Source of the DNA: Ulota crispa
Lineage: Eukaryota; Streptophyta; Bryopsida; Orthotrichales; Orthotrichaceae
Direction of reading: 5' to 3'
DNA: 64,000 nucleotides
NCBI GenBank assembly: GCA_963920765.1
Contig: OY987249.1
Span: 13,764,817 to 13,828,816, forward strand
Below the pieces are notes generated by a model, which saw only the letters and a list, made by a program, of their open reading frames with translations, was not told the DNA's origin and did no database searches. Positions 7,689-39,157 of the stretch are shown here, one piece after another. A program made the position numbers and the translations under genes. Position 1 is the first letter of the stretch. Each line of letters opens with the position of its first letter.

Positions 7689-10600
7689 ATGGCGTCGATG
7701 ATTTCCACGATTGCGACTGGAACTTCGCATCACTCTCGTCCGTTCCTGACCCGCGATGCCGGATTCCGTGTCCCATCGGTGTCGGTAGAATTGCTTCGGT
7801 TGCGAGGTGGAAGTGATGTTCGTGTATTCGGAAGAATTGGCTGTTCTGGGGATAGGAGAACACCGGCACGGCTTCGAGCAGCGGCGGATAATTCTCCAGA
7901 GTCTTTGAATTTCACCGACGGCGAACAGTCGGTGAGTGGCCATCCAATCCTTGGTATAATGCATGACACTTATAACCAACAAGTATTGGCCAAACAAGAA
8001 ATACTAAAGCTTAACACATATAAGGTAGTGTGCTCATAAATCAACAATCTAAGGGCTGAAACTGAATTGTGGGGAGGTGAAATTTCTTGAACTATTTTTC
8101 AGTAAATTCTCCTTGGAAGACAAGAAGAATTGACATCCAACCCAAATTATTTCGTAATTTTTGGAACTTTATGGAATTAGGTCTGAAATTTTGAAGTGGA
8201 AAGGCCATAGGTCTCTAAAACCGCCCACCTCCTCAAATGTGCACTCCTTGTACATTTTGAAAACCTCTGAAAATAAGCATGTACAGCAAAAGAACATTTG
8301 AGAAGGTGGGGCGTTTTAATGCCTGGACAGTTTATGAGCACACTACCTTATTCATTAGCTCAAAAGTTATTCCACTATTAACAAACCCTAAGCTTCATCT
8401 TGGTGGACTCAAATTTTTGATAACTTTTTTTTGACAAAGCCTTAGGGTAACCACTTGAATTCGAAGTTGTTAGTTTTAAGTGTCATGCACAGTATGGCTT
8501 TTAGAATTTGCAACTCTTTGCAGTTGCAGGACACGTGCGAGGGATCTGGCATTAGATTCTTTGCCGATTGTTCGTGCGGTAATGCAGTCGAAGTCGGTAA
8601 GTCGGTACGTCGGAGTGGTCAATGTGGTTGGCTTTTTGTGGTCTTAGGGTTTGATGGTCGTTTCGAATTTTTATTTGCCATTGTGGAACTTTTGCTGAAT
8701 TTGGGTGTCTTTTATGCTCAACCAGGAATCGACCAAGATCTCAAATTCATCCTTTTGGAAGAACTGGCAGGTATGAAATTTGCTACCGACACTGATGTCG
8801 AATCGCCCATCTCAGTTGTTACGAGTTTCAGTTTCTTCTGCACATTGAAAACCGTCATGGTGAGAATCTTTGCAAGAAATATAGAAAAAATAGAAAGTGA
8901 ATATTATGGATTGCAGAAACGTTTCAAATTTCCATGTTTGGGGGGGGGACAAGATTGGAACCTTCACTCTTCAGAATTGGAAAACTCACAAAGGCTATAA
9001 ACAATTCAACACAGCACACTTGTTTATCGTTTGTGAGTTTTACGACCGGTTGTAGGTGCCAACTTGTGTTGGGGTTTTTCGGAAAATACTTGGAGGAGGA
9101 GCTGAAGTTTGGATTTTTTTATTATTACAGTCTCTTTTTATTTTTTGTGCCTTGCCCATGATGATGTTAGGTTTGCATGTAGCTAGAGCGTGAGCGTCAA
9201 GGATTTTTTGGTTTTCTATCTAGATGTGCTCATGTGTGTTATTTGACAATCCCTAGATTTCCGTGTAAGTTCCAGTCTTGATGCCCACTATTCTTATTAA
9301 CCCTTAAATTGCATGATGTTCTCAAATTGTATGATGTTGTTCATTGGAAAGTCTTAACATTGTGACCAATTTTTTTTCTTATTTGACCAAACCCTAAATT
9401 AAGGGAGGTTCACGGTATCTAGATATCTCAACTGTGCTGCTTTTTGTCGGACATGTTTTGTTCTTTAATTTACCTTTTTACAGATGAACGCTGGAGAGTT
9501 GAAGGAGAAAGTGGCCAAACTGGGACGAGCTGGTTTGCTGGCGTACGGCTTGTTCAACGCCGTCACATACACCACCTTCTTCTTCATCGCGTTTCTGGCG
9601 TTTGAGAAAACGGGACAAAACCCTACTAAGAATCTCAAAGCTTGTCTTGGGGTACGTCCTTCCCACTCCTCCTGTCCCTTATCTCAACCCTGAGAGTCCC
9701 GCCTGAAGGAGATGACCCAACTTTGTTGAGTTATAAAGATAATGAGAAATACCAAATAAATGCCTGAACATTTTAAACAAGAAAATTGGCGGGACTAGGG
9801 CTCACAATTGGGTTTATGCTTTTTTGTTGCACGTAACTCTTGAGCAAAGTCCCACATTCTAAGCGCCATATTGTTACAAAAATTGCAACTATCTAAGCAT
9901 CTGTAAGTGAACCAAGATGATTCAAAGTTATGTTTCCATTTTTGCTTTGACCCAACTCCTGAGTGATGTCGCACCCCGTGTAAGTGCCAAATTTTCAAAG
10001 TGCTGCCATGTATGCATTTGGGAGGCAAGAATGGGGATGTAGTGAGAATTACTAGGTCCCAACTTTGGACTCTTGCCCAATCAAAGTATGAAGCTTTAGT
10101 AGTAGGACTTGGGAAGAGGGATACAGTGTGAAGGAAAAGTTTCATGGATACCCCTGAAGTTTGCAATTTTTGCATAGATACTCCTGCATTACTCTTGGAT
10201 CAAAAAAGTTAGGCATTTGTTTGTTGTGCTCATACTTCCTTTATGACCAATGTTGAAAAAGGAAATGTAATGAAACAAAAAAGAAGAAATGTGCACACAA
10301 AGGAAGAAGGAAAGTGGCATTCACAACAAAACAAACGCCTAAATTTTTTGGTCCAAGGGTATTTGTGCAGTTCCTGAAAAAACAAGGGTACCTATGCAAA
10401 TATTGCAAACTTCAGGGGTATCCATGAAATTTTCCCTAGTGTGAACTGCCCTTTAACCCTTAAATGCTAGGGGTCTCTACAGTTGTGCCCACATATTAAA
10501 ATATTATTTTTAAAAGTTGCAAAAGTCAATAGTGCATGGTCCCTCATGACAATTACAGTAAGGGCAGCTTGGGACCTAACACCATGACTCTGAAATTTCT

Positions 10601-11042
10601 CACAATTTGGGTTGTCTAAAAATATGAGTGCAATTCATGAGATAATTTTTGCCTTATATGATGGACCATGTGTTTATGATCACTTCTGAAAAAAATCAGA
10701 CTAAAAACTGCTATTTTTATGCTCAGAGAGTGTTTTTTTATGGTTAAGGGACAAAAAAATTGTCCCTTTTGGCGTTTAAGGGTTAACTTACATGGCCATG
10801 CTTTTATTTGTTTCTGGTGCCAGGGAATGGTATCAATGTGGACGGGGAACAACTTCACGAGGCCGTTGCGAGTCGCGGGAGCTGCAGCTCTGGCCCCTTT
10901 CATGGGCAAAGTCTTAAAAACCACGCAGAAATTGATGCACTTGGCGGACGAAGCCTCGGCGTTTCTGTTTCTGGTCATCTCCTTGTGTGCGCTGTGTGCT
11001 GCCGCTGTGGGCATCCTGATTTTGTCTCGCTTGGGCAGATGA
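7689..11042 (+). CDS. Chloroplast-targeted DUF1279 (FAM210-like) membrane protein
   Basis: Three exons (7689-7931, 9484-9651, 10824-11042), all joined in phase 0, give 209 residues. Donors are TCG|GTGAGT and GGG|GTACGT; acceptors are TTACAG and GCCAG. Residues 1-70 are rich in Ser, Arg and Ala with almost no acidic residues, as expected of a chloroplast transit peptide. The DUF1279 core follows: ELKEKVAKLGRAGLLAYGLF, a hydrophobic segment TYTTFFFIAFLAFE, then SMWTGNNFTRPLRVAGAAAL. The C-terminus is a second membrane span ending GILILSRLGR, like Arabidopsis At2g27290 (ends ILSRWGK). The biochemical function of plant members is not established. Intron 1 (1.55 kb) holds a TA-target MITE. Intron 2 (1.17 kb) holds three elements packed together: an older MITE fragment, a Mutator-like MITE and a TTAA element. 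Confidence 0.88.
8023..8348. mobile_element. MITE with TA target duplication in DUF1279 intron 1
   Basis: A 326-bp element bounded by TA on both sides. Its near-perfect terminal inverted repeat is AGGTAGTGTGCTCATAAA (8023-8040 and 8331-8348). Inside, 8216-8316 forms a second hairpin, with arms containing CGCCCACCTCCTCAAATG and a near-complement. The TA target fits a Tc1/mariner-type mechanism; the family assignment is an inference. Confidence 0.75.
9945..10452. repeat. Fragment of a dispersed MITE family (ends CAGTGTGAAYTSCCC), interrupted by a later insertion
   Basis: The segment from about 9945 (CCAACTCCTGAGTGATGTC) through GGGGATGTAGTGAGAATTAC (about 10033) to GGATACAGTGTGAA, then CTGCCC at 10446-10451, aligns by eye with 635-850 and with 50598-50807. 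It is interrupted at 10133-10436 by a different MITE. All three copies lie in introns. Confidence 0.55.
10133..10436. mobile_element. Mutator-like MITE, copy 1 (DUF1279 intron 2)
   Basis: A 304-bp foldback element. The left end GGAAAAGTTTCATGGATACC and the complement of the right end share a long terminal inverted repeat continuing into CCTGAAGTTTGCAAT. It is flanked by a 9-bp target duplication, CAGTGTGAA at 10124-10132 and TAGTGTGAA at 10437-10445 (8 of 9 match). Nine-base duplications are typical of Mutator-like elements. A second copy lies at 55337-55654. Confidence 0.8.
10457..10782. mobile_element. TTAA-target (piggyBac-type) non-autonomous element A
   Basis: A 326-bp element flanked by TTAA at 10453-10456 and 10783-10786. 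The inverted ends read CCCTTAAATGC and, in complement, CCCTTAAACGC. It encodes nothing and ends about 40 bp before DUF1279 exon 3. TTAA duplication plus a CCC start is the hallmark of the piggyBac superfamily. No transposase is present, so the assignment rests on the ends only. Confidence 0.65.
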
Positions 11043-11264
11043 CGCCATCGCCGGTGCAGTATTTCCATATACCGAGGTTGACGTTGAGAACCTTTTCCCT
11101 TTTGGTTTTTATGCAAACCTCGGCAAGCTCATGTTGGGAGGATTGTCGTACTACTGCTGCCAAAATTTGAGAGCTGCATCTCAGGAGGTTAGTGCTTAAG
11201 CTAACTCCCTCTTTTGGCCACAATCTTTACCTGGCTGCCTTCAATTCTGAATAACATTGATGAA
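11043..11264 (+). other. 3' flank of the DUF1279 gene with an open alternative frame
   Basis: Downstream of the stop, another frame is open from about 11020 to a possible donor at 11190 (GAG|GTTAGT). It would encode DDAIAGAVFPYTEVDVENLF and onward to NLRAASQE. A CAG acceptor at about 11910 would add Ala-Thr-stop. GC content here is gene-like. It is most simply 3' untranslated sequence; the coding look may be chance. Confidence 0.3.
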
Positions 11265-11266
11265 TA

Positions 11267-11580: not shown

Positions 11581-11599
11581 TAACTACTAAATTCCTCTC

Positions 11600-12401: not shown

Positions 12402-12405
12402 TTAA

Positions 12406-13312
12406 CCCTTTAACGACCACACCCATTTTCACAGAATCCACTGAAAACAGGGGCTGTAAGCTTAGAATTGGAATTGATTCAAATATGGTCCCATTTTCAA
12501 TAATCCAACCGTACAAATGGGAAGCACACCTTGTTTATTGTAAAACACCAAAATTTCAGCTAGATCTATTGTTGGAGGTGAAAAATTATAATGATTGAGT
12601 GAGCCGTATGGGGAAAATCTTTTGTGTTTCATTCTTGTTTAGTTTTGAATGTTGACCTTTCATGCAAGCTTCGATTGAGAAGAGCCATACATTTCTAGAG
12701 AGCAGGGTTTCCCACCTTTCCAACAAGACTAGTTTCACACAAAATAGACAAAAATAGTAGTCACAAGGTGTAGCTAAGTGAACAAAAAGGGTCAAAAAAC
12801 CCACTTTCTTTGCTACCCTAAAATGGTTCTACAAGAAATTTGATAATTATTCTAGAAAATCCAATTGGTGAAAACAATCAAGAATTGGCCTTAAATGTAG
12901 GATGACAAATTTTAAAACCAAAATGACAACACCATTTTAGTAGATCTTCAAATACTACAATTATACTACTACCATATATGAAAACAATACAAGCGTATTG
13001 CTTAAGCAATTTGAAATTTTTTAGAATTGTGTAATTGAAATTTGACATTCTTTTTGCATACTTGATGTATTGTGTTGTTGCTTTGACCCATCTTTGACAA
13101 AAATTGGATACGTATTTTGAAGCCATGCCATATAAACACCATTACTTATCAACTCACATACCCAATTACATTGTTATTTTTTTAAATAGATGCAAAATTC
13201 TTGTGACCACATGAATACTTCAAAACCAAATTCCAAATTATTGGGCGATTTCAACCTACAGGCCAAAAACCACTCCCACCGACCAAAATATGGTCGCGTG
13301 GTCTTTAAAGGG
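12406..13312. mobile_element. TTAA-target (piggyBac-type) element B
   Basis: A 907-bp element with TTAA at 12402-12405 and 13313-13316. The inverted ends are CCCTTTAACGACCAC and, in complement, CCCTTTAAAGACCAC. A further subterminal match to the family is GACCAAAATATGGTCG at 13281-13296, which is itself a palindrome. There is no transposase-like open frame. Confidence 0.75.
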
Positions 13313-13749: not shown

Positions 13750-14668
13750 CCCCTAAATGCTCAACAGTGTTTTTCTTGTTTTTAGAAGGTAGTTTTGAAG
13801 TTTTTGAATTGTAAGATCATCATTAAACATCAAAAAGAAATTGTAATCTTTGAATCTTGAACTTTAAGGTTTCTAAATGGCATTACCCAAAAAGAATCCA
13901 AAATGATAGCGCGGATTTTAAGATATTTGTGATTGAATGATGATGAGTATGGAATTTTTTGTTTTTTGTTTTAATTACCCGAAACTTCAAATGCAAATTG
14001 GTAACTTTTAAATATAAAATTGGGAGACAGCCACTTAGGATGCTTTAGTGTTTATTGTTGTTACTTCAAAACCAATGGCCCCTCTTCCAAATCCATGACC
14101 ACAATTTCACAAATGAGCCTGCAATGCAACTGTCAAAACACAACCGTCTAATATAAAGAAATTTTCAACTTCAATTTTTGACCAAAAATCATTATGAATG
14201 AAAGAAAGTTCAATGGTGAAAGGATTCTAATTTCCATAACATAGACATTCCAAGTGAAATTAGTCCAAAAGTGCTTTTAGATTTTGTTAGATGTCAAAAC
14301 TTCAGTAAAAAGGGCCTTATTGCCTAAGGGAGTGCCCAAGGGAAATCTTCACCTTTTGCTCAGCTTGATGCCCGTCTTTTCAATGTGGCAACTTCTCATA
14401 GGCTCTATGATACTATTCACAACACTATTCATGACACTATTCACGACACTATTCACAACAAAAAATGTATGCTTCTAGTTAACCTTCCACCAAAAAGAAA
14501 TAGAATAAGATTTGGAGGAAGTTGAATTTGAACAATGAAGCTACCTTCAACGCGCAACTTTTCCACAAAGAAAAACCTCAAAATAATAAAATTTGTAACT
14601 TCAACAAGGTTTCAAAGTTTCCTGAAATTTTTTGGACACCAGAATCTAATACCTCAGGCATTTAGGGG
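13750..14668. mobile_element. TTAA-target (piggyBac-type) element C
   Basis: A 919-bp element with TTAA at 13746-13749 and 14669-14672. The inverted ends are CCCCTAAATGCTC and, in complement, CCCCTAAATGCCT. A short internal array of ACTATTCACAAC-like 14-bp units lies at 14408-14460. No coding capacity is seen. Confidence 0.75.
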
Positions 14669-14672
14669 TTAA

Positions 14673-16146: not shown

Positions 16147-16372
16147 GACTCACACGGAATTCAAGTATAACTCAAATCAGGAGCAATGACTTCTGTGTGG
16201 CAGACCACTTCTCTCAGTCACGTCCCAACCAGAGCAAATCGAACGTGCTTATTCATCTCTGCTGAACCGAAAACAGGCAGCCTCAATCAAACTTCGAATT
16301 GACGCAATCCATCTAACGTAGACTCCATAATTATGCTAAGTTTCAGCTCTGACCAGAAATTAGGGGTACCCT

Positions 16373-18702
16373 TCAGCAGTTTTTCCAGTTCTTTTGAGCA
16401 GATATCAGAGCTGACAGCAGGCCTGCAAACGATAACAACAGCGGGTTGTCAAGAACTCCTTTGGTTTCGCGTATGTCAGTCAACGCCAACAAACTGTCGG
16501 CGAAGTCCTGAATGATAGACAGCGTCTTCATCAACCGTTTGGCTTGCAAGGCTTGGAGTTCCTTGATCTCCGAGACAGGGCCGATCCCGCCTTCCGCCTT
16601 CTTACGCATCCCCTGCAGCAGCTTGGATTCTTGCTCCAGGTACAACGACACTTGGATGCACTTCAGGGCCACGCTCCCAAAATATCCAATAAATTCCGTC
16701 CACGCACTCAGTTTGGTTAGCCGTTTGGCGTACCGTTTATGAATAAGCCCCGCTTTTGCCTGTCGCACAACGACATATACACGTACATATATCATTCTAC
16801 TAGACACAAGCAGGGCTTTATTTTTTGGCTTTTTGGTGCTAGAAAAAAGTTATTTAATTTCCGAAGACGGTTTGTAAAATCATAAGTTGCCTTTAATAAA
16901 GCAATTACTAAAGGACCTGAGCCAACTATTAAAGCCAAAGTAGTAAGCTGTGCAATAACCTCTAAATTCATTTTGATTTAGCCTCTCTTTTTCAATTTGA
17001 TTTTATGAAATTAAGAAAATCATTAAAAAAATATATATCTATAGCGATAAGATCAGTACAATAATAGAAAACCTATTCATTCAAAAATTTAATAAATCAT
17101 TAATTAAATAATTTTTTTGAATGAATTTGTTATATATATTACAGATTTTTAGGAGAGAAAAAAAATGACAGCAATTTCAGATAGTCAAATTATTGTAGCT
17201 CTTGTTAGTGCTTTTATAACAAGTATTTTAGCTTTAAGATTAGCTAAAAGTTTGTATCAATAAATTAATTAGTTTTTTATTTATTTACAAAAAAAATAGC
17301 CTAGCCAGTAACAATATCTAGTTAGGCTCAAATAAAATGAAATAAATCACTTAGTTAAATTTTTTTTAATAATTTTTTTTTTTCTTTTTTTTTTATTAAA
17401 ACAAAAATCTCACCCAAAAAAAATCTGGCTAAAAAACATTTTAAAAAAATGCCAAAAAATTTTGATGATTTTGCCACAAGCCTTCAGTTTTTTTTAATTG
17501 GATGAAATTGCCAAATTGTGGATGAAAACCAAATTATAGACATATAATATGTACTAATGTGATATTTCCTATCCAATATGTGGATGAATGTTGAAATTTG
17601 GAGCACCACTATAACATTTTAAATCGCCACCTTCACACTTCTTAAAAAATGAAAAAAAGCCCTAGACACAAGGGCTGGCTAGTTAGTATCATCATTAACC
17701 CCTAAAGGTTCATGAGGACGATTTTTTGTCCTTTGGTCCTGAAAAAGCATTCTGTGCAACAAAAAAAAGTCGTTTTTCATCTACACTCTTAAACACAGGA
17801 AAAACAAGACACATACAGAAAGCACTTTTCAAACGGCCTAAAATTCTTTCAATTAGTTCGTCCTCGGGAGGAGAAGACACCTAAATTCAGAGTTGCAGGA
17901 ATCAATTCAATCGCAGCTGCGACAAAGGCAATTCGGAAAGAGTTCAAAAATAAGAGCTAATTTGCAAAAATCAATCAATTGCAGCTGCAATAAAAGCAAT
18001 TCGGAAAGAGTTCAAAAATAAAAGCCACTTTGTTCAGAAATCCTGCAAAGAATGATGAAAATATTAATGCAAAAGAATTCTTTTGTAGAGATTTATACGA
18101 GAGCGTTCATGTTTATAGAGAATTATGCAAGAGCGTCCATTTTTGTAGAGAATCATCCCAAAGGGCTCATTTCTGTAGAGAATTATGCGAGAGCGTTCAT
18201 TTCTGTAGAGAATTAAGCAAGAGCGTTCAATTTTGTAGAGAATCATGCAAGAGCGTTCAATTTTATAAGAATTAAGCAAGAACGTTCATTTTTGTAGAAA
18301 ATTATGCAAAAGAGTTTTCCTCACCAGCCACACGAATTGCTCGACGAAGTAGTAGCAGCCTTCTCCGCCGGTGGCAACGAGCTCCAGCATGCCATCCCGA
18401 GAGTGCACATCAGCAATCCGCTTGAGCGCGTTCACGTCCTGGACGAATTTGCCGAGTCGAAACGCCTTGCGGCTGCTGCCAACGCTGGCCTCGAACGCCT
18501 TCAGACGGCCTTGCGTCTCCGGAAACGTCCCCGACGCGACGATCGGCGACGCCAAAAGTAGTTTGGCGGAGTAGCGCAGAATCTTGAGCGCCTTGTCGAC
18601 GCCATCGCGGCGCGATAGAAAGCTCTCGACGTGCTCCAAGAACGGTCGGTCTTGTTTGGCCATAGCCAATCCGGCCATGGCCAGTCGCTCCTGTTCGGCC
18701 AT
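16373..18702 (-). CDS. PEX11: Peroxisomal membrane protein PEX11 (peroxin 11)
   Basis: PEX11 drives elongation and division of peroxisomes at the peroxisomal membrane. Two exons (18702-18325 and 16759-16373) join as TGG CTG|GTGAGG...GACAG|GCA AAA, giving [13 protein letters not shown] and 254 residues in total. Family marks in exon 1 are [36 protein letters not shown] and [15 protein letters not shown]. Exon 2 has [38 protein letters not shown] and an end, [15 protein letters not shown], that matches plant PEX11 C-termini such as Arabidopsis PEX11A. No residues appear missing. The single intron (16760-18324, 1565 bp) contains plastid DNA with psaM and psb30, one end of a TTAA element and two tandem arrays, one reaching to within about ten bases of the donor. 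A Harbinger element ends 360 bp upstream of the start codon. Confidence 0.93.
16870..16971 (-). pseudogene. psb30: psb30 (ycf12) plastid copy, C-terminus altered
   Basis: From ATG at 16971 the frame reads [20 protein letters not shown] then LVIALL, which is 26 residues of the 33-residue photosystem II subunit Psb30. The expected final AARKGNL is replaced by KATYDF and onward. The DNA AAAGGCAACTTATGA that would encode KGNL and a stop is still there but out of frame, so a deletion of about 10 bp just before it is the simplest explanation. It is a transferred copy and is not expected to be expressed here. Confidence 0.8.
17165..17263 (+). CDS. psaM: psaM, photosystem I subunit XII, intact plastid copy in a nuclear intron
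   Basis: A 32-codon open frame encodes [20 protein letters not shown] followed by [12 protein letters not shown], the normal full length and sequence of PsaM, a one-span thylakoid protein of photosystem I. An AGGAGA ribosome-binding site lies about 8 nt upstream of the ATG. The frame is undamaged although it is in the PEX11 intron on the opposite strand, so it is presumably not translated. This points to a recent transfer. It is too short for routine gene finding. Confidence 0.85.
17298..17328 (+). terminator. Plastid-type 3' stem-loop after psaM
   Basis: AGCCTAGC at 17298-17305 pairs with GTTAGGCT at 17321-17328 (7 of 8 pairs), 35 bp after the psaM stop. Such hairpins stabilise plastid mRNA 3' ends and add support for a plastid origin of this block. 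Confidence 0.6.
17699..17790. mobile_element. Lone end of a TTAA-target (piggyBac-type) element
   Basis: TTAA at 17695-17698 is followed by CCCCTAAAGGTTCATGAGG and a GTCCTTTGGTCC segment like the ends of elements D to F. No matching opposite end with TTAA was found downstream, so this looks like a truncated remnant within the PEX11 intron. Confidence 0.5.
17899..18030. repeat. Tandem duplication of about 66-69 bp in the PEX11 intron
   Basis: Two copies share AATTCGGAAAGAGTTCAAAA and a preceding GCAGCTGCRAYAAARGC segment. The copies start near 17899 and 17968. Confidence 0.8.
18081..18316. repeat. 30-bp minisatellite abutting the PEX11 5' splice site
   Basis: About eight imperfect 30-bp units, consensus around AAGAGCGTTCATTTTTGTAG followed by AGAATTATGC. 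The array ends within about ten bases of the PEX11 donor (minus strand, GT at 18324). Because 30 is a multiple of three, both strands stay open for about 70-80 codons ([10 protein letters not shown]-type repeats on the plus strand). That is a by-product, not a gene. Confidence 0.9.
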
Positions 18703-19061: not shown

Positions 19062-19920
19062 TGCCCCTTTCGCACTCGTGATTTAGTAAAACCGGTTTTA
19101 AACCACAGATTTTTTTTTGTAAATCCTGGAAATCAAGGTTTAGGGGGTAAATATCTTTTTTGAGCCCCTACCCTGTTACGTCTACTCGGGTATTTGTAAT
19201 GGTGTGAGGTGTTCAAACTCGCTCTTTTGTAAAACCTCGCATCCGCACAAGTAGGTCCCGTCAATCGCGTTTCTCTTCTTCTCTTTTCTTCAAGTTCAGT
19301 CTCTGTTGTTATTGATTGTGTTCTCTTAATATTTGCACACATATTGTTGCTTCTCCACATTTGAGACAGATTGAGGCGCAGCAACTCTGCGTTCATTTGC
19401 TTTCTTCTTATTGTTACTGGTACTTCAACGCTCTGTGTTCATGTGACCGTCGCTAGTACTTTGAATCAATCCCGCATGTTCCAAAAGTGAAATTCGACGT
19501 CGTCTTTGAAAGCAGTCACCATCGCAATTACTATTTGAAGGTGAGTTTCTCTTCTCTTAAAATTGCCCGTTTAGTATTTCGTCTTATTCTCTTGAATTGT
19601 GACTCCCGAATGCTTGCGGCACTGCAATTTGTTCATTCAAATGCTCCTTTCTTTGCGTGTCTGGTTCGAATAGCTTTTAGGGGAGTGCGTGAAGGAAATT
19701 GGAGGTATGTGAATTTTTGATTAGGGTTTCCAAAAAATTAATCATCTGCGTCATTGGTTGCTGAAGATTTTATTTGAGTTTTCTTTTGCAATTTACCCCA
19801 TGATTTAGTCTTGCAATTCTTTTGAAATTTTGTTCTTTGTTCTCTTCTTCTCTAGAGTCATCTTGTTATGGATTTGAGTGACGATGCACGTTGGTTGCTG
19901 ATTCTTGGAGTGTGGTTCTT

Positions 19921-21234
19921 ATGCAAACGTTGTTTGCGCAAAACCTTGTGACTTTGCCGACGAGTCCTGCTGAGGAGGAAGATGCAAGCACATCGCTGCA
20001 GATGATGTTGGACACTCTCGGCAAGACCTCGGAGAATCTCGTGCTTGCTATGCACAACGGAATAAACTCCTTCCGCTTTTTAATAGCACCTACGGTTTTG
20101 GAAGAGGACCTTGGCTTTTGAGTGAAACCCCGATCAACTACTTGGTTTACTTGGTTTCTGATGGCAGAGTACGATGATACAAGGTGGGTTGAGCTCTGCC
20201 AAATGTCCCAACGTTCTGTATTCACGCTTGCAAACATCCTATCCCCACAAATCTGTAGGCAGAACACAAGGTATCATGCTGCAATCCTTGTAAAAATTTG
20301 GGTGGTGTGCACTTTATTCAAGCTCTCACACGGTGTTTCTCTTAACATATGCTCCAAGATGTTTGCACTTGGAAGGAGCACCGTCAGCTCTATTCTCCGG
20401 GATGTCTTTAGAGCAATCAATGACACACTAAAACATAATATTTCCTAGCCCACGGGGGAGCACTTAAGATTGACCCAGCAAAAGTTTTCTTGTCTCTGTG
20501 GTTTATTGGCTGTAGCTGGGGTGATTGAGGGGACTCACGTCTCTATAGGTAAACCTTGGTATGTCCCTAGTGATTACTACTACTTTAAGTCAGGGAGATA
20601 TACTCTTAACTGCCAGGCCATAGTCGACAACGAAAAAAGATTTCTTGACCTATTCTTGGGCATGTTGGGGTCTACCAATGACTCAAGAGTTTTGAGACGC
20701 TCATCTTTGTACAACCTTGCAACAAATGGCAACTTATTTGGTGATGAAGGGAGAGAAGATGGGTTCACTCCCTATATTTTGGGCAACCAAGGTTATCCCC
20801 TCTTATCTTGACTAATGATCCCTCACCCTCAATTGAACCCTCTTTCTATGTCCGAGTCCGTCTTCAATAGAAGATTGAAAAAAAGTAGGTGTGTCGTCAA
20901 AAATGCTTTTGGTATTATGAAGTCTACATTTCGTGAGCTATTAGTTAAGTCTAACCTTGAAGTTTCCTTTCTCCCGGTTGTTATCATGTGCTGCCCCATT
21001 TTATACAATATTTTGCTTGGACACTCGAAAGAAGCCGTGGAAGAGCTTTTGGCTGTTATCAGGAGGCAGGGGAACTATGTTGAACCTACCCACGAGAACG
21101 CAAGGATTGAGGACCCTGAAAATCATCAAGCTTTTTCCAATGCCAAAGTCGATGGTGTGCGAAATGGTGCCGCAATTAAAAAGCGGAGGCTTCTAGGAGT
21201 ATACCTCACTACTCAACTCCCTCATGGTAATTGA
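19921..21234 (+). pseudogene. Harbinger DDE nuclease, decayed
   Basis: One reading frame of about 438 codons carries three premature stops (20119-20121, 20446-20448, 20809-20811) and no frameshift. Comparison with the second element (LQFWVKPRS, KILWLTGER) shows two of the stops replace Trp; the third, in PLLS-stop-LMIPHP, falls where Harbinger nucleases normally have Trp. Family blocks include RSTVSSILRDVFRAINDT, GVIEGTHVSI, YYYFKSGRYTLNCQAIVDN, GSTNDSRVLRRSSLY and RCVVKNAFGIMKSTFREL. The first catalytic Asp is Glu (GVIEGT), the second is kept (TNDS) and the catalytic Glu is Lys (VKNAFG), so the protein would be inactive. Confidence 0.85.
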
Positions 21235-21765
21235 AGAAGAAGAAGGTGAGAAATATTTTTTGGCTCCACTTCCTCTTTTGTTTACTGCTCTTCAATTCAA
21301 TTGTAGTTTTTGGTAGGAATATGCAGCTTTCTATGGTCTTTGTCTTTCACATGCCTAGTAGTTTAGGGTTTCTAAAGATATGAACATTCTAAATATTATG
21401 TGGAAGTGCATCACATATAATAAGAGCTGCAGAGGTAGCTTCACATATATGTCTGTATGTTTCTCATCACATTCACTGCAGAAAGTACTTGATGTCTTGA
21501 TCTAATGCTTGGAAAACATAATCGTACAACACACTGTAGAAAAATATGTTTTTTATTCATCAAACAATGCCCTATGAAAGGATTGGAAACACATGAGGTA
21601 CTCTATACTAGTAGTACCTCTACGTTCTATAGTAGCTGCAAGTGCTAATCAGCTTGTCCTTGCGGTGCAAGTCGCAATCTTCTGTGGAGACTAATACAGG
21701 CATGACGGAGCTTAGGCATTGCCTTGACGTTTGCGGACAAGAAGTGCAATCCATCATGGAGCACT

Positions 21766-24694: not shown

Positions 24695-24914
24695 AAAAAA
24701 TGGCGTGTGTGTTGGTTTGATGAATTCATTTTTGGTTTGATATTTGCTTATAAAAATAGAGTTGTGTGTGAGTTTGACCAAAGTGAAAATGTTTAAAAAT
24801 AAAAGTGGAGTATGAATTTGATCAAAGTAAATTTGGAGTAAAAAGTAAATTTGGACAAGTTGTAAATGGAATTTTTTATTAAAAATTTCAACTTGTGCTA
24901 AATGGATGTTTTAA
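24695..24914. repeat. Direct repeat, copy 1 (with 27407-27660)
   Basis: AT-rich segment with GTTTGACCAAAGTGAAAA and CTAAATGGATGTTTT. It aligns in the same orientation with 27407-27660 (GTTTAACCAAAGAAAAAA, CTAAATGGATGCTAAATGG). TTAA element D starts at its right end. Confidence 0.5.
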
Positions 24915-25836
24915 CCCCTAAAGGACCATTGTCCCTTTGGAGGGGGACAAATGGGATTTTGAGCATGTACCTATGGCTAAACTAATTTGCGCAATTTTTT
25001 GGAACTTTTGTTGAAGGTGAGGAATTCAAAGATCTATGTGGAAATGTAATTTTTTCTTCATTCCAACATTTATTGAAGAAGTTATGCATGAAAATCTGGA
25101 AAATGCTGCTCCTCGGGCAACCAAAAACTTCTTTAAAAATTTTATATTTTTCAAACAAGAATCTGAAATAGCTTCTTTAGACTTATATAGACGTGGGGAG
25201 CTTTGAATCATTCAATTTTGATAGATGAGATGAAAGTTAAGAGGAGTTTTTGTTTGCGGGCAGTTCTAGATTCTCTACTCTGAAATAAAGTTTGAAGTCC
25301 TTTATTTTACTCAATTTTCATTACTTTGGAAAAAAACAAAACATAAGGATGTAGATTGTTTATCAAAACATTATAACCCTTGGGATTTGCATTTTTCATT
25401 TTAATAATTAAATTCTTAACAGTTTAGTGTTTTGACTCATTCTCTACATATTTTTACTTACTACTTTTTCCCATGTGTTGTATAGTTCCATTTGATTTGA
25501 AAATTCTCCCACACATACCTAACTTGGTTTTCTACATGGGAAAAATAAACCTCAACTTTGCTTAGAGCAAATTTTTTGATATAGGAGTGGTCAACGGCTT
25601 CTGAAATTTTTGGGCAATACAAAAAGAACTTTTTTCTTCTCTTCACATGTAAATTTCTCACTCCTTTTCATTAGGGATAAGCTCATTTTTTTCCCAAGTA
25701 CCTCATACTATCTATAGCAAGAGCTTATGGTTAGATTTTGAAATATATATATATATATATATACCATTCCTTTCATCCCCCAAAAGTGGCAATTTTCAGT
25801 ATTTTTCACAAAGAAAAGGGCCTGGTCCTTTAGGGG
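24915..25836. mobile_element. TTAA-target (piggyBac-type) element D
   Basis: A 922-bp element with TTAA at 24911-24914 and 25837-25840. Ends are CCCCTAAAGGACCATTGTCC and, in complement, CCCCTAAAGGACCAGGCCC. Its left end matches the complement of the right ends of E and F, including GGTACCTATGGCTAAA or GTACCTATG cores, so D, E and F are one family, with D inverted. It contains an (AT)n run near 25742-25762 and no gene. Confidence 0.8.
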
Positions 25837-27406: not shown

Positions 27407-27660
27407 AAAAATGGCTTGAGTGCGTGTGTGTGCACCTGCATGTCTATTGGTTAGATGAATGTATTTTTAGTTTGATGTCTGCTTAAAATTAGAGAGGAGT
27501 ACAAGTTTAACCAAAGAAAAAAAATGAAAAATAGAGTACAAAACAAGTTTAATCAAAGTAAAATTTGAACAAATCTAAAAGTGCCAAAGTAATAAATGAG
27601 TTTTTTTTGGTATAAATATCAACATATGCTAAATGGATGCTAAATGGATTTTTTTAAATT
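27407..27660. repeat. Direct repeat, copy 2 (with 24695-24914)
   Basis: Same order of motifs as the first copy, about 2.7 kb away in the same orientation. It lacks a TTAA element at the corresponding end. Confidence 0.5.
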
Positions 27661-30720: not shown

Positions 30721-30724
30721 CTCG

Positions 30725-31290: not shown

Positions 31291-31319
31291 AATTTACATA
31301 ATACAAGAAGAATTCTTAA

Positions 31320-32271
31320 CCCCTAAAAGCCCAAGCCCATTTTTTTGTGAAGATCACTCAAAACTGCCACTTTTGGCGGAGTGAGGAGAAATGTAATTTT
31401 TCCTTTTTTCTAGAAATCCAACCGTAAGATCTTGCCCTAGACAATGGGAGGTACTTATGCAAAAAAAATTAGCTCATTCTAGATGGTGAGGAGTGACATA
31501 TTCACATAAAAAGTGAAAACAAAAAAGTTTTTTTCACTGCTGCTCAGAAATTTGAAAAGCCTTTGACGGCTCCTATATCAAAAAATTTGCTCTATGCAAA
31601 GTTGAGGTTTATTTTTTGCATGTAGAAGACCAAGTTAGGTAAATGTGGGAGAATTTTAAATGAAACAAAGGTGAGGATCATACTTTGTAAAATCTTGCAA
31701 TGCCATAAAGTCATGAAATTTGCATATACACTAGGCAAAATTAGAGGATTTATGTAAAATTCAAAAACCCAAATTTCTTTAATCCAAATGGTGAAAACCA
31801 AGGAAGCTTAGTCTACTACAACTTGCAAGAAAAAAAGGTCAAAAAACAAATACACGAAGAGCTCAAAAAAGTAAAGATAAAAGTTTTACAAGGGAGAAAA
31901 AGAATGGAGGTTTGGGAGTGCCATACCTACCCGTAAACTAAAACTTCTCATAACTTTCATCTCATCTATCAAAATTGAATGATTCAAAACTTCCCAAATA
32001 CAAAAAAATTTAAAGAACCAATTTCAAAATTTTATTTAAAAAAGTTGCATTTACTTTTTTTTTTTTTCTACCCGATTCTCCCCTATTTTTTAGTTATTCA
32101 TGCATAACTTCTACAGTAATTGTCAAAATGAAGAAAAAAATATACCCGCATGTAGGTCTTCACATTTCCCACCTTGAATAAAAGTTTCAAAAAATTATAC
32201 AAAGTAATTTAGCCATAGGTACCTGCCCAAAATCCCATTTGTCCCCCGAGGGGACAATGGACCTTTAGGGG
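31320..32271. mobile_element. TTAA-target (piggyBac-type) element E
   Basis: A 952-bp element with TTAA at 31316-31319 and 32272-32275. Ends are CCCCTAAAAGCCCAAGCCC and, in complement, CCCCTAAAGGTCCATTGTCC. Its body aligns with F in the same orientation (GTAGAAGACCAAGTTAGGTA, CTATATCAAAAAATTTGCTC) and with D inverted. No gene. Confidence 0.8.
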
Positions 32272-34035
32272 TTAAGCTGGCTAAGTGCTTGCAAAACAAA
32301 ATCAAAGCAACTTTGAACCTCAAACTTTTGAAGGAAAATTTAAAAAAGAGCCTTAAGTCCCATTTGCACTTGGCATTAGTATTTAGAAAAAACCGCTGGT
32401 CTAAGGTGTGACATACGGAGGTGTTCCCACCAGCCAGGAGTTTTACACCCCGAGCCTACATGGCTGCAAAGGTGGCAGGGCTTTAAAGGCGATTTTTTAA
32501 GAAAGCAAAAGATAATTTCTAGGAAAGCTAGAACTAACATGCAAACTTTTTGCAACCTTAAATCTAGACAAAACTAGACATTTGAGGAATTGGTGGGCTC
32601 CGGACGGCGCTATCATGTACTGGCAGCCTCAACGATTAGTTACAAAAATGCGGCCGTTAAAAATCCCTGGAAGTCCGGTTTTATTCCCCCGCCATTGCTA
32701 GGGCTGCTTTGATGCCGTACGTACGAGGCGGCTGGCACTTGACACATAAGTATAGAAGAATGTTTACACTTTTGCAGTGCATTCTAAGCTTTGCTCCTAT
32801 TGTTCACAGGGATTTGACTGTTGCATTGAAAAGTGGAGGTTTTCAGGTATGTTGCTGACTTCAGCTTGTCTTTCAATATTTGCATTGCATTGCTAGAGAT
32901 GTAGAGAGAACATGACTGCCATGAAGTTTTGTTGCTTTTAGAATTTCTTTAATTTCAATTAGCATTGCACTAGATCACAGCAATGGCATGTTCAAATGCA
33001 AAATAGCCAAGGTGAGAAAAAAAAAAGACTCACTAGGTAGTCCGTATTGCTATTCCATTTCTGAGGAGCAAATGCTGCATTATCACATATCACCATCATA
33101 CTTCGTGATGAGCACGCTTCAATACTAAGTACCCCTAGAGACCATGTACTTGGAGTCACCAACTAGTGACACAAATGTTTATTTGAATTTCTGAATGCCC
33201 TATGTTACAGCAACATAGACCCGTGATTGCATAGCATTCATTGGGTTGCAATGCTATGTAAAAAAATGCTTGTAATTGCTAGACATTGTGCTAGACATTG
33301 ATACTTCAAGACGTTTGTTTGGCGTCTATACCCTTCTGGTCGTCAGCAAGTTACTGAGACGCTGATAACATGGAGAACCACCTACACTCTGGAAGGTACA
33401 ACATTCCAACTTGGCCTGCCGTGCTGGCTCCTCCGCCTGTCGCCATCGCTCCTCACCATGTCGCATTGCCATTGAATGGTAAGTTCTAGCTTTTATGACT
33501 TCCATACTTTTTATTTGTTTAAGCATAATTGGAGGTACATGTTACAAGAACAAGGAGGAAACAATTTGTTTGAATTCATAGCTATGTTGAGTTTCACTTA
33601 CACCTGTGACGAATACATGTCATGTGGTTACCACTCCTTCCTCGAATGGTGAAATGTTTGTCATTGTTTTGTTTCATTGTAATTTGCGATCCTTAGTAAA
33701 TAGAAGTCGAGTGACTAACGAGAGGCTCTCAAGCTCTGCGCTCAACTGTTACAACTCAACCTGACCTGCAAAAAACACAAAAACCCTCCGATGGTGTAAT
33801 GAGTTAACTTGTACTCTGCATTGAAAGTGGTTTGGTTAAGGAATCTCACGTTTTCTTCTTGTAATCATGCTGCAGCAGGTCTCCCACTTGCCAGTTTCCA
33901 ATTTGGCCGGCCTCCTACACCTATGAGGGGCCATGGCAATGGCATGCGGCCACACATGGTGCCTCGTCCAGGTCATGTGGCCCCAGTTCTCTTGCTCCTT
34001 CTTGCGGGTCGCCCTCTACCACCAACCTAGCACCT

Positions 34036-35112
34036 GTGCATGCACCACCATGCACTACCACTCTAGCAAGTGCATCAACAACTCCAAACATCACCAACAA
34101 CAACAAACGAACCCGGAGAGACAAAGGACCAAATTGGGTTCATCAAGAGGTGCTCGCCCCCATATATGCAAAACAGGACTTATTCTTGGAGGAGCTTGTT
34201 GCGGTAGATGGGAGGGACCTCATGACACTAGAGACCACAAAATGGATACACATATCTCAGGAATTGTTGAAGGCAAACTACTCACCTGTGGCTCGCGAAG
34301 GAACAACTTGCAAGGCAAAGTGGAATCTGATACTCCCTGAGTACAAGCAAATCACGGACTACTTGCACAAAACTCGGAGGAATATCCCGGAGTATTGGGA
34401 GTTGACATCTATAGAACAACAAGATGAAGGACTTTTGTAACAATTCTCTATAGAGTTTTACCGAGCCATTGACAAATGGTATGGATCCAAGCCTCAGATC
34501 CGCCCCATACATCTCAGGGACGTTCCACACTGAAAAGTGGATACAAACTTGGGAGCACATGATCCAGTACAAGAGGAGGTAGGAGAGGAAGATAGCACCT
34601 ATGAAGGGTCCAATGGCCCAACAGACTTGGATGTTGAAATAGGACCTAATGGTGGACTGGGCCTGGGCACCTCCGCTCACTCTCCAATACTATTGGTCTT
34701 CCCTCCATAGACTGCTGCCTCCACACCAACTCCAGTGTTGCATCTCGATGTGTTGGCCGCATCGTTCTTGAGGCCAGACTACTCAGTTCCACTTGGAGTT
34801 ACACCTCAAGTGATCAGCTCTTTAGGTAATTCATCATACTCCCTTGGAAGACAAGAGGGCAACACAGGTGTGAAGCAAAAAAATCAATCGGGACAAACCT
34901 TGATGGCAGAGGTGACAAAGGCAAATGTGGAGACGATTGCCAAGCAAATGAAGGAGAGCGCGCAATCCCATCACAAGATGGAGCGTATGAAGATTGAGGT
35001 TCAATTCAAATTGTTTGAACAAAACATGACTTTTCAACCAGACAGAGATCAATGTGCATATTCAAATGCAGCCAAAGTTAATGCCATTGCAAAAGCTACC
35101 GTAAGTAAGTAA
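34036..35112 (+). pseudogene. Harbinger accessory Myb/SANT-like protein, decayed (element 2)
   Basis: One frame with RRDKGPNWVHQEVLAPI, TTKWIHISQELLKANYSPVA, CKAKWNLILPEYKQITDYLH, NIPEYWELTS, then a Pro/Ser-rich linker and a helical end MERMKIEVQFKLFEQNM. Three or more premature stops lie between 34438 and 34735, with no clear frameshift. It aligns along its length with the minus-strand gene of element 1. The start is approximate. Confidence 0.75.
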
Positions 35113-35901
35113 GGTGAGATTGCCACTTGTCTTTTGCATAGAGCAGATGTGCTCAGCACTAGATTCAGCAAGCTCTCAAGCCTTGAGAGCGGCACTTCAG
35201 TATTCCAACAAAGAAAACAACAAACCCTTGGATTTCCCACTACACCCAGAGGAGAAGCTTACCTCCTCTATGAGTACACCCCCATGGAGACCAAAGACCG
35301 GTCCCCCAAAGATCCCGCAGCGGCAGTCCAGATCCAACGGCCCCCGAACCCAACATTAGTTTTGGAAATTCCCGCCGCAGCTACAAACACGCCCACGACA
35401 AGTGCCGCAACGACGGGAGTGGATGGACAAGCTCCCCACCAAAATGAGGAGCTATAGCTATGAGCCGGAGTGTGTATTGCCATCGAAGTGCCTTGGTGCA
35501 ATTCCACTGCGCTATTGCAGCTGGCTTGCCTTGCCAATGCAGGAGTTCTTTGTACTCATAGGATGCAGCAGTCACGATTAGTAGTTTCTAGAGTTCTTAG
35601 TATCAGACTCTATCGGATTGAACAGTATGACAATCCGTAGTGTAATTCTTGCATCATCTGAATACACAAAGACCAACAATTATTGTTCCATATTGTACTT
35701 CAGAGGCTATTACATGTCAACATGTTTGCAGCACTTTTCCTTCTAATATGCATTTTGTACATCATGAGATATGGTTATGCAAATTGTGCTTACGTAAATA
35801 TGTGCACACGCCCATTATCCTTTCATTATGCAAATTCTAAAAGGCATTATCAAGAGAACTTTAAATTCAATGAGGAAGTGTAGTAGCAATCACCTTCACG
35901 G

Positions 35902-37215
35902 CTATGGAATGTTCGGCCTGTGCATAGTCAAATGCACGCCAAGAAGCTGACGCTTCTGAACGGCCGCTGCTATCCTAGCTGTCGCAAGCATTGCCTCATT
36001 AGCTTCATGCCCATACGGCATATCAACCTCAATTTCGAATTCCCCCTCACAGTTGCCAGCTAAACCTTCTGAGTGTAGTACGCCAAACAAGTTTTGAACC
36101 TTGTCTTGCAATTGGTCTAGAAGCATGTTGTGCAGTATTGCTCAACATAGGATTACATCCAGTAGAAATGCTACATCCAACTCAAATTTAGTTAGCAACT
36201 CTCGAAACGTTTGCTTGAGAATGCCGAAAGCATTCTCTACCACACAATGACCTTTCCTGAGTTTCCTATTAAAAAGGGACTCAGCAAAAGACAATTGTCC
36301 ATTGCTCCTATGAAGTACCATAAGCCAAGGTAACAATAGATAACCCTGGTCTCTAAGAAGGTAAAGAGTGAAACCTTCAACTCCAGGCTAGTTGGTGAAA
36401 AAAAATTGTCAAGTAGACAAGCCATACAGTGAAGATCTCCTGAGCACTCTCAAATTGTTTGTGGACCCCGGCATACTTAAGAATAAATCCAAGACCCACT
36501 TGTCACTGTCCATGATAGCCTGACAGTTTAAGGTATAACCCCGCGACTTGAAGTAGTAGTAGTCAGCAAGAACAAAATGTGGCTTTGCAATTGAGATGTG
36601 TGTCCCATTGATTGCACCAAGTACAACTGGTAATCCACACAAGTTACCAAACTTTTGCTGTGTTAACCAAAGCCTCTCACCTGTCAGCCATAAAATTTTG
36701 TGCTTGAAAGTCACATTGATTGCATGAACGACGTCTCTCAAAAATCCACAGACAGTGCTCTTCCCTATCGCAAACATCTTAGAGTACACAAACAGTGACA
36801 CTCCATGAATCAATTTGAACAAGGTGCAAGCCACGCGTACAACAATTGGACTGGCAAGACGGTACTTTGTATCTTTTCTACTGATTTGAGCAGACAGCAT
36901 CTCAGCCAAGGTAAAAACATTCCGTTTTGGCGTTCAGAACGTTTCTATCCATCTTTTGTAGTCATATTTGCTCATGAGGAACCTTGAGAACCAAGCGGGG
37001 GATCTGGGCTTCACCCAGAACTGTAGGTTTGCCCTCATAAATAATGGAGGGGTGTAACCAAGGAAACCCTGCAATCCTAAATGCACCAAAGCAAGTGGAT
37101 CCTCAATTGGTTGACCTAGGGTGTCCAATATGTCCTCGGCAATACTCAAGGAATCCACCTCCTCGACATCAGGAGATGGCAACAAGAAACTTCCATGTGC
37201 TATCAACGCTTGCAC
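35902..37215 (-). pseudogene. Harbinger DDE nuclease, decayed (element 2)
   Basis: Blocks in order are FWVKPRSPAWFSRFLMSKYD, AEMLSAQISRKDTKYRLASP, GKSTVCGFLRDVVHAINVTF, GAINGTHISI, YYYFKSRGYTLNCQAIMDSD, GSTNNLRVLRRSSLYGLST, GHCVVENAFGILKQTFREL and KRQLLGVHLTM. At least two premature stops and two frame changes (between about 36425 and 36336) break it. Both catalytic Asp residues are Asn (INGT, TNNL), while the catalytic Glu (VENAFG) remains. It could not act. Confidence 0.85.
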
Positions 37216-38224
37216 AAGTAATCACAATCCCAAGAGCACAGCCAAATCAACATCTTGGCTAGTATCCATGACTGCTGAAGGTTCAAACGGAACCAATTGC
37301 CACGAGGAACGTTAAAAAAAATCAAAATTTCTTGTGTTAAAACAATCAAAGATTGTCCCATATGGCTTTGAAAACATTACACCCCAAAAATGGACTCCCC
37401 AATAACACCTCGTGCAATTCAAATTACGCAACGCACATGTCGGCATACCAATTTAGTCCCCACCCAACCCTCCACCACATAAGGCCATACACATGAACCT
37501 ACAAGCAGGGATTGAATATAAAAACAACTACAAAATCATGGAGAGAGGAAAACGTACCTTGTGCAATACCTATGCTTGCCCAGTTCCAAAATTGCAGCAA
37601 AAATTGACTGCACTCCTCGGATCACAACTCTCCCGCAACTCCAATTGAGCACCACAAAGCATGACAATGGTTCTCAGAACGCCGGATGCTGGTTCTCCAA
37701 CAAGCAACCGCAACAACACGTACGACCTAGTCACGTGTACACAACAATGATAGCACCAAGAGCACAGTAACGCAGGCGCGCAGAGCAAAGGGAGCAACAC
37801 GCATGAGGAGAAAATGAAAGAAAACCAGCACAAGAGAAGAGAAACCTCAACGTCTACATTACACGTTTAGTTCTACTAAAGAGCAAGGGGATGTAGAAAC
37901 CCCTCGCATTTTAATCATTACTTTTAGAAATGGCGCATCCGATGGGACTTTAAACCCCCCCTAACACCGCAAGTGGGAACACCCCTGCCCCTATATTTGC
38001 AGGAGCGTGGAAATCCTAGCTTCCCCCCTCAAAACCTACAAAGCCTGATTTACAAGGAACAGTGAAAATTTTAATTTTTTAAGACTCTTGTAGCTAATGC
38101 CGGGTGCAAATAGGGCTTTACAGTGAGCGAGTCAATCACCCTGGATTTTGCAGCACTTGCCTACAAAACAAGCTCTCCAGGTCCACCGTGAATATGAGTT
38201 GCACAAGCTCCATCAAAACCTTAA

Positions 38225-39153
38225 CCTCTAAAGGACCAAGCCATTTTTTTAGTGAAAAATACTGAAAACTACCACTTTTGGGGGAATGAGAGGAATGGTT
38301 TTTTTATTTATTTATTTTTAAAATCCAACCGTAGGATCTTGCTCTAGACAGCATGAGGTACTTGGGGAAAAAAATTGAGCTTATTCCAAATAACAAGGAC
38401 TGAGATTTTTACAAATGAAGTGAAGAAAAAAGTTTTTTTTCATACTGCTTAAAAATTTCAGATGCCGTTCACCACTCCTATATCAAAAATTTGCTCTACA
38501 CAAAGTTGAGGTTTTTTTTTCCCATGTAGAAGACCAAGTTAGGTATGTGTGGGAGAATTTTCAAATCACTTGAAACTATACAGCACATGGGAAAAATCAA
38601 TAAGTAAAAAGAAGTAGAGAATGGGTCAAAACACTAAATTGTTAAGAATTTAATTATTGAAATGAAAAATGCAAACCCCAAAAGTGATAATGTTGTAATA
38701 AACAATCTACTTCCTTTGGTTTAGTTTTTTTTCCAAACTAATGAAAATTGAGTAAAATAAAGGACTTCAAAGTTTATTTTAGAGTAGAGAATCCGTAACT
38801 ACCCGCAAACAAAAACTCCATATAACTTTCATGTCATTGATTGAAATGGAATGATTCAAAGCTTTTCATGCATGAAAAAATCTAAAGAACCAGTTTCAAA
38901 ATTTTATTTTAAAAATACATAATTTTTAACAAAGTTTTTGGGCTGCCCAAATGGGCAGCCCTCCCCAAAATTTCAGAAAAACATGCATAACTTCTTCAAT
39001 AAACTTTGGAATGAAGAAAAAAATTGAACCCCACGTAGATCTTTGAATTCCCCATCTTCCATAAAAGTTTCAAAAAATTACATAAAGTAGTTTACTCATA
39101 GGTACATAACCAAAACCCAAACGGTCCTTGAAGTGACAACCGGCCTTTAGGGG
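38225..39153. mobile_element. TTAA-target (piggyBac-type) element F
   Basis: A 929-bp element with TTAA at 38221-38224 and 39154-39157. Ends are CCTCTAAAGGACCAAGCC and, in complement, CCCCTAAAGGCCGGTTGTC. Same orientation as E. No gene. Confidence 0.8.
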
Positions 39154-39157
39154 TTAA

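Follow-up and report, generated by a model that had tools for sequence, protein, structure and literature searches.

The piggyBac superfamily is known chiefly from animals. In Trichoplusia ni piggyBac (IFP2) the chemistry of excision is established, and a palindrome at bp 17-33, present at one end only, is described as the binding site of a dimer of the C-terminal domain (PMC7351741). CCC is reported as the commonest first triplet of piggyBac ends (PMC10813416), and CC[C/T]T is given as the strict terminal hallmark in work on coral elements, which also describes AmiPB2, an autonomous piggyBac of Acropora with the left terminal inverted repeat (TIR) CCCTTTAACGCCC, and assigns a family with CCCCTC ends, CMITE III, to the superfamily (PMC2872659). 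The Repbase rule for membership is stated as an equal length of target site duplication (TSD) and at most one mismatch to a known member over positions 1-11 (PMC4455052). Reviews place piggyBac in plants (PMC2874221, PMC10794571) and 1,230 PiggyBac copies are listed for the C-fern genome (PMC6890710), so "undescribed", the term used in a preliminary description of the present elements, is too strong in general. The superfamily is already known in plants; the present host is little documented for it, and no work devoted to non-autonomous piggyBac elements of land plants was among the literature matches listed.

Here we describe six complete TTAA-flanked elements (A-F) and an orphan end at position 17699 in a 64-kb window, by which we mean the whole stretch of DNA that was analysed. 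We consider them, with good though not full confidence, to be cut-and-paste transposons that are non-autonomous and depend on one or more transposases of the piggyBac superfamily, with genes at other places in the genome. The host is a green plant, probably not an angiosperm. Its attribution to the land plants is based on a pentatricopeptide repeat (PPR) gene in which Pfam matches the E motif, and on plastid-like DNA carrying ycf12 and, we presume, psaM.

Elements and boundaries

The TTAA-flanked features of the window are as follows.

10457-10782, no strand assigned: element A, 326 bp, TTAA on both sides; ends CCCTTAAATGC / CCCTTAAACGC, the right end with a palindrome at bp 15-37
12406-13312, no strand assigned: element B, 907 bp, TTAA on both sides; ends CCCTTTAACGACCAC / CCCTTTAAAGACCAC, the right end with a palindrome at bp 17-33
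13750-14668, no strand assigned: element C, 919 bp, TTAA-flanked, perfect 11-bp TIR CCCCTAAATGC, no palindrome near bp 25
24915-25836, minus strand: element D, 922 bp, TTAA-flanked, perfect 14-bp TIR CCCCTAAAGGACCA, the left (window) end with a palindrome at bp 15-36
31320-32271, plus strand: element E, 952 bp, family of D and F, the right end with a palindrome at bp 15-33
38225-39153, plus strand: element F, 929 bp, family of D and E, degraded palindrome at the equivalent (right) end
17699-17732, plus strand: orphan end of the A-F type, TTAA at 17695-17698, palindrome at bp 17-34, no accepted partner
9301-9311, plus strand: possible second orphan end, weak, TTAA at 9297-9300, sequence CCCTTAAATTG

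Inspection of the flanks found TTAA directly outside all 12 ends of A-F, and the boundaries originally given for the six elements are correct to the base. Their inverted ends read CC[C/T][C/T]T[A/T]AA. The proposed start CCCYTWAA is right as to the CCC, with which 11 of the 12 ends begin, and fails at the left end of F (CCTCTAAA), which begins with CCT. Preceded by TTAA, the pattern (TTAACC[CT][CT]T[AT]AA) is found at 14 places when both strands of the window are counted, whereas 200 first-order Markov shuffles of the window averaged 0.22 and never exceeded 2; inward-facing pairs of ends 100-1200 bp apart number six, as against none in each of the same 200 shuffles. TTAA precedes 14 of the 38 CC[CT][CT]T[AT]AA sites in the window (overlaps counted apart). 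A longer consensus, TTAACCCCTAAAGGNCC, searched with up to 3 mismatches, gave 12 matches where 0.40 would be expected; the left end of A is not one of the 12.

The label MITE is uncertain for these elements. They have TIRs, and their 36 read-through frames gave no Pfam match better than E 0.04, but five of the six span 907-952 bp and are longer than classical MITEs.

The lone end reported at 17699 is real and strong, carrying the palindrome and agreeing with the right end of E at every one of its first 11 bases. It sits between two PEX11-coding open reading frames (ORFs). The best partner candidate, at about 19146, was not accepted, having TTAC in place of TTAA and no match past CCCCTAAA, and it would enclose a PEX11-coding ORF. 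The end at 9301, not mentioned earlier, has neither partner nor palindrome and may be a chance occurrence.

Families and termini

Nucleotide identity is 83.7% between D and F, 69.4% between E and D and 68.5% between E and F, D lying in the opposite orientation to the other two, and by this measure the three make up one family. Their homology runs as far as the TTAA, ending there or within 2 bases outside it. A, B and C have no clear similarity at the nucleotide level to D/E/F or to one another beyond the ends. On sequence comparison there are therefore at least four families (A, B, C and D/E/F) with one end code in common, and the earlier mention of at least four end types and several subfamilies was a fair description. 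Outside D/E/F, interior comparison put 3 of 18 pairs (A-E, A-17699 and B-E) 1-3 score points above the best of 40 shuffles, slight excesses that we attribute to the termini these pairs have in common. No additional copies of D/E/F were found in the window. The exact D/E end pattern had no match in viral and genome contig collections, exact matching being a weak instrument for a family diverged by 16-32%. The left flank of D (24703-24908) is repeated at 27438-27639; this repeat was rejected as an empty site for D, as no match of the right flank of D was seen there. Rfam (gathering threshold) and tRNA scans of the window returned nothing.

Compared with nine autonomous termini, the right end of A and the left end of B match the AmiPB2 left TIR at 10 of the first 11 bases, within the mismatch allowed by the Repbase rule, and the left end of B (CCCTTTAACGACC) differs from that TIR at one of 13 bases. 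Links of the same kind run from C to A, from E and F to C, and from D and 17699 to E/F, such that C, D, E and F reach AmiPB2 only through this chain; B is not linked in this way to another element within the window. When CCC was kept and the remainder shuffled, 4 of 20,000 trials produced at least two AmiPB2-like ends, and when the first 8 bases were kept 3,471 of 20,000 did so, from which it follows that the AmiPB2 match adds little beyond CCCTTTAA/CCCTTAAA themselves. The strict hallmark CC[C/T]T fits the four ends of A and B, while the eight ends of C-F (CCCC or CCTC) do not fit it.

A palindrome centred at bp 24-26 is present at 5 of 14 ends (A, B, D, E and the orphan at 17699), or in four of six families with D/E/F counted as one. 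This count was reached in 0 of 4,000 mononucleotide shuffles and 1 of 4,000 Markov shuffles, for a range of centres chosen with the data in view; across centres 8-89 the count is highest at bp 24-26, with 5, and the next highest is 3. The palindrome at the right end of B occupies exactly bp 17-33, as in T. ni piggyBac. No palindrome near bp 25 was found at either end of C or at 9301, and weaker A/T-rich palindromes at the other (right) end of D (centre bp 27) and the left end of F, with centres within bp 27-28.5, mean that the one-end rule is not perfectly clean. The second repeat of the T. ni right end (about bp 45-63) belongs to an arrangement that is not known to be general; sought as a palindrome with its centre at bp 51-56, it was missing at all 12 ends.

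The likeness to T. ni piggyBac, as that element is described, takes in the TTAA target, CCC ends, a terminal repeat of about 13-15 bp and, at one end, a palindrome at about bp 17-33; the window differs in its plant host and in having neither a listed transposase nor a palindrome centred at bp 51-56. The coral AmiPB2/CMITE system likewise has TTAA and related ends across several MITE families in one genome (PMC2872659), but the CMITEs there are about 100 bp long with a common interior and more varied ends, whereas here the interiors differ, the ends are common and five of the six elements are longer than 900 bp. Over 11 bases, every one of the 14 ends has more than 2 mismatches to each of the six CMITE termini compared.

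Transposase search and alternative readings

A longer partner element encoding a piggyBac DDE transposase, which the preliminary description suggested seeking, was not listed in ORF scans of the window. The family listings cover 300 of the 311 stop-to-stop ORFs of at least 60 aa at E up to 0.01, and the 36 read-through frames of the six elements at E up to 1; neither set includes the transposase domain sought, which we take to be PF13843 (DDE_Tnp_1_7), and no coding remnants of a piggyBac transposase were listed in the window or the elements. The sole weak DDE_Tnp_1 match (E 0.0048) falls in a Harbinger ORF that fits DDE_Tnp_4 better. The window holds two PIF/Harbinger elements.

32356-38117, no strand assigned: PIF/Harbinger element between E and F, TSD TTA at the best candidate ends AGTCCCATTTGCAC / AGCCCTATTTGCAC
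33865-34437, plus strand: Myb-like ORF of this element, just under the cut-off
36412-36933 and 36145-36387, minus strand: DDE_Tnp_4 ORFs of this element
19062-24657, no strand assigned: second PIF/Harbinger element, TSD TCA at the best candidate ends TGCCCCTTTCGCAC / TGCCCCTTTCACAC
20449-20808 and 20812-21231, plus strand: DDE_Tnp_4 ORFs of the second element

The candidate ends were chosen out of 24 and 35 inverted 14-mer pairs. For the element at 32356-38117 a second, poorer candidate pair exists.

PIF/Harbinger transposons and their Tourist MITEs are common in plants and have an A-T-rich target, and A-F could be such MITEs, moved by the copies in the window, with a 3-bp TWA duplication misread as TTAA. 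Both copies have DDE_Tnp_4 ORFs, one also has the Myb-like ORF, and D, E and F all lie within about 260 bp of Harbinger candidate ends. The copies themselves, however, have 3-bp duplications, and their best candidate ends, AGYCCYATTTGCAC (TTA) and TGCCCCTTTCRCAC (TCA), are unrelated to those of the TTAA group, on which ground they were rejected as partners of A-F. All four bases of TTAA stand outside every one of the 12 ends, and a 3-bp duplication would put the two ends one base out of register. For the two copies in the window the Harbinger reading is largely contradicted, and we regard it as very improbable. Chance, base composition or relics of telomere-like CCCTAAA sequence can be set aside almost entirely as the origin of the end pairs: the ends do contain CCCCTAAA, which the plant telomere unit resembles, but each has one unit only, the six pairs contrast with none in 200 shuffles, and the homology of D, E and F stops at the TTAA or within 2 bases of it.

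The least improbable alternative is that the elements belong to a different superfamily that targets TTAA (Kolobok, Sola3), or to a plant TTAA transposase, so far undescribed, that converged on CCC ends. No transposase was seen in the window, leaving the superfamily to be read from the ends alone, and C has no palindrome and CCCC ends are atypical; against this, the AmiPB2-like termini and the position of the palindrome favour piggyBac, and we consider the alternative unlikely. Sola3 is presumably disfavoured as well. Kolobok likewise duplicates TTAA, but its termini are given as 5'-RR..YY-3' (PMC9587614), whereas all 12 ends here begin with CC and are of the form YY..RR, which argues against it and led us to reject it. 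Two further names, Wuneng and Microuli, belong to what we take to be mosquito elements and offer no precedent in plants. Both are TTAA elements named in the coral paper, and no plant transposon was among the matches listed for these names.

The piggyBac assignment, as first proposed, is the best for these TTAA elements by their termini, the end-by-end comparison with AmiPB2, the palindrome position and the YY..RR form. We regard it as well supported, though not proven. In its favour, the ends with their TTAA are far above chance, and four families with unrelated interiors have the same termini. Counting against it are the lack of a listed transposase domain, the absence of the palindrome in C and at 9301 and its degradation in F, the lack of the T. 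ni right-end palindrome, the CCCC and CCTC ends that depart from the strict hallmark, and the unlinked position of B. The boundaries, the TTAA on both sides, the common ends on unrelated interiors and the position of the palindrome in most families are direct observations.

A possible piggyBac system in a plant

Under the piggyBac reading, one or more transposases of the superfamily, with genes outside the window, would mobilise A-F and the element represented by 17699, recognizing a terminal repeat of about 11-15 bp that starts CC[C/T][C/T]T[A/T]AA. The short palindrome about 25 bp in from one end would be bound by a dimer of a cysteine-rich C-terminal domain, giving the asymmetry of ends that T. 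ni piggyBac requires. Excision would probably proceed via TTAA hairpins, and insertion at TTAA would duplicate that target. More tentatively, and with rather more doubt than belief, we suggest that a non-angiosperm plant lineage keeps or has kept a complete, diversified piggyBac system, in which unrelated interiors have one end code including the one-end palindrome, and that a transposase with an animal-type asymmetric transpososome is encoded in the genome.

If the piggyBac reading is true, the superfamily and the end architecture typical of it occur in a plant, and the four end sequences could be used to fish out the transposase. It would also suggest that the one-ended palindrome of the moth element is an old feature and not a peculiarity of the moth.

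Elements, families and neighboring DNA

Six short elements, A to F, lie at the coordinates assigned to them in the preliminary description, as a direct check bore out, and TTAA is indeed present directly outside each of their ends.

10457-10782, element A
12406-13312, element B
13750-14668, element C
24915-25836, element D
31320-32271, element E
38225-39153, element F

The 64-kb window has 14 copies of the end motif TTAACC[CT][CT]T[AT]AA, versus a mean of 0.22 and a maximum of 2 in 200 first-order Markov shuffles of the window, the null model used for motif and pair counts alike, and inward-facing end pairs 100-1200 bp apart number six versus none in every shuffle. Across both strands of the window, TTAA precedes 14 of 38 CC[CT][CT]T[AT]AA sites. 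Two ends are left without an accepted partner: the lone end at 17699, which had been noted previously and is convincing, and one at 9301, which may be a chance match.

D, E and F are members of one family, their alignment extending from TTAA to TTAA. Identity is 83.7% across 922 aligned sites for D-F (Kimura distance 0.185), 69.4% across 905 for D-E (0.397) and 68.5% across 915 for E-F (0.412), divergences that suggest old insertions; a profile built from the three recovered no additional copy in the window. The 18 pairs outside this family (elements and orphan) were compared in both orientations with 40 shuffles as reference. Fifteen pairs scored inside the shuffled range and three (A-E, A-17699 and B-E) lay 1-3 score points above the best shuffle, as shared termini would give. 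Four unrelated interiors carry one common end code, as expected if one transposase, or a close set, reads the ends.

Several other repeats are present. Directly left of A is a MITE-like foldback (10132-10438; 55-nt arms, 89% complementary) flanked by hAT-like AGTGTGA repeats of 7-8 bp, with a diverged copy at 55335-55638. A 269-bp unit at 39625-39893 is bounded by inverted ends CACTACAAGAAAAAGGGC, which are typical of CACTA elements. Inverted repeats of 108-617 bases, 82-89% identical, at 42094-43904 and 59584-63627 probably represent another large transposon family.

The window also contains a pentatricopeptide-repeat gene matching the E motif, an AlkB-type dioxygenase whose closest solved structures are ALKBH2 and ALKBH3, and PEX11 exons; a tandem array of 30-bp units (18051-18316) adjoins a PEX11-coding ORF. 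Plastid-like DNA carries two frames.

Starts 16971, minus strand, ycf12 frame
Starts 17165, plus strand, presumably psaM

Neither gene is known from angiosperm plastomes, and their presence together with a G+C content of 22% in the fragment would fit a bryophyte-like plastid. This DNA lies inside 16811-17663, which has AGGGCTTTWTTTTTT-like inverted ends and a flanking 9-bp direct repeat AGACACAAG and may be a Mutator-type element with captured plastid DNA, inside a PEX11 intron.

Superfamily of the elements

Pfam listed no piggyBac transposase family at E≤0.01 for 150 of the 154 ORFs of at least 60 aa in the central region or 150 of 157 such ORFs in the rest of the window, and none for the 36 read-through frames of A to F at E≤1. 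Two degenerate PIF/Harbinger elements are present, with DDE_Tnp_4 E-values as low as 8.6e-11 and a Myb-like ORF scoring just below its cut-off; the sole other DDE match (DDE_Tnp_1, E 0.0048) falls inside a Harbinger ORF at 36145-36387. For the two elements, the best candidate ends were picked among 24 inverted 14-mer pairs in the first case below and 35 in the second.

32356-38117, Harbinger copy 1, best candidate ends AGTCCCATTTGCAC / AGCCCTATTTGCAC, TSD TTA
19062-24657, Harbinger copy 2, best candidate ends TGCCCCTTTCGCAC / TGCCCCTTTCACAC, TSD TCA

In the stretch 31316-39157, E and F share one orientation and stand 80 and 103 bp away from the two candidate ends of the first, 5.8-kb copy; D is ~250 bp from the second.

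These Harbinger copies, which share CCC.TTT.GCAC at one end each, make unlikely partners for the TTAA group and were rejected in that role: their best candidate ends look different, and the TSDs of those ends are 3 bp long. TTAA targeting is common to piggyBac, Kolobok and others. Kolobok termini are described as 5'-RR..YY-3', unlike those of piggyBac, in passages of PMC9587614, whereas all 12 ends of A to F start with CC. The strict CC[C/T]T hallmark fits A and B; C to F do not conform.

A Repbase rule places two non-autonomous elements in one superfamily if TSD length is equal and positions 1-11 differ by at most one mismatch (passages of PMC4455052). AmiPB2, a coral element with a 543-aa ORF, is tabulated among piggyBac-like transposons, its left TIR being given as CCCTTTAACGCCC (passages of PMC2872659). 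To this TIR as given there, the left end of B (CCCTTTAACGACC) and the right end of A (CCCTTAAACGCCA) each show one mismatch in the first 11 positions; the remaining 12 of the 14 ends have at least two mismatches to every one of nine autonomous coral termini in the same passages. By the rule as excerpted, the left end of A links C to A, C in turn is linked with E and F, and E/F with D and 17699; B has no link to any other element of the window. At least two AmiPB2-like ends arose in 4 of 20,000 trials when CCC was kept and positions 4-13 were shuffled, versus 3,471 of 20,000 when the first eight bases were kept, so it is CCCTTTAA/CCCTTAAA, rather than bases 9-11, that carries the signal. The coral MITEs differ, none of the six termini compared from these passages coming within two mismatches of any of the 14 ends. 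We regard the piggyBac assignment of the preliminary description as likely, although the defining transposase gene was not found in the window ORF scans.

A subterminal palindrome

A short inverted repeat starts at base 15-17 of A right, B right, D left, E right and the orphan 17699. These palindromes were spotted by reading the ends before we consulted the cryo-EM study of T. ni piggyBac, passages of which describe two-fold symmetric binding of the first 16 bp and, on one end only, binding of a palindrome at bp 17-33 by a cysteine-rich-domain dimer (PMC7351741). The palindrome of B right spans exactly these bp 17-33.

With arms of at least 5 and loops of up to 9, a palindrome is centered at bp 24-26 in 5 of the 14 ends (background 3.3% per position), the maximum over scanned centers 8-89 (runner-up, three ends), and in four of six families with D/E/F counted once. 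None of 4,000 mononucleotide shuffles and one of 4,000 Markov shuffles reproduced this. C and 9301 are without a palindrome at this position, that of F is decayed, and no element has one centered at bp 24-26 at both ends; A/T-rich palindromes are centered at bp 27-28.5 in D right and F left. T. ni piggyBac has a second repeat, 31 bp inside the other TIR (passages of PMC10140906), which is absent from all 12 ends of A to F at the tested centers of bp 51-56.

Precedents for piggyBac-type elements in plants

The elements had been put forward as a kind little described in land plants. This stands insofar as no TTAA/CCC-ended non-autonomous family from a land plant was described among the matches listed, in a coverage outside which lie Repbase and most subscription journals, and passages of a MITE survey of 207 plant genomes, with five superfamilies and a special group Micron, contain no piggyBac class (PMC12550479). 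It needs qualifying since piggyBac in plants has already been stated in general terms (passages of PMC2874221, PMC10794571, PMC10140906 and PMC10813416) and passages on the C-fern genome report 1,230 PiggyBac copies totaling 122 kb (PMC6890710). A to F add to a known kind of element, one that is little documented in the host group.
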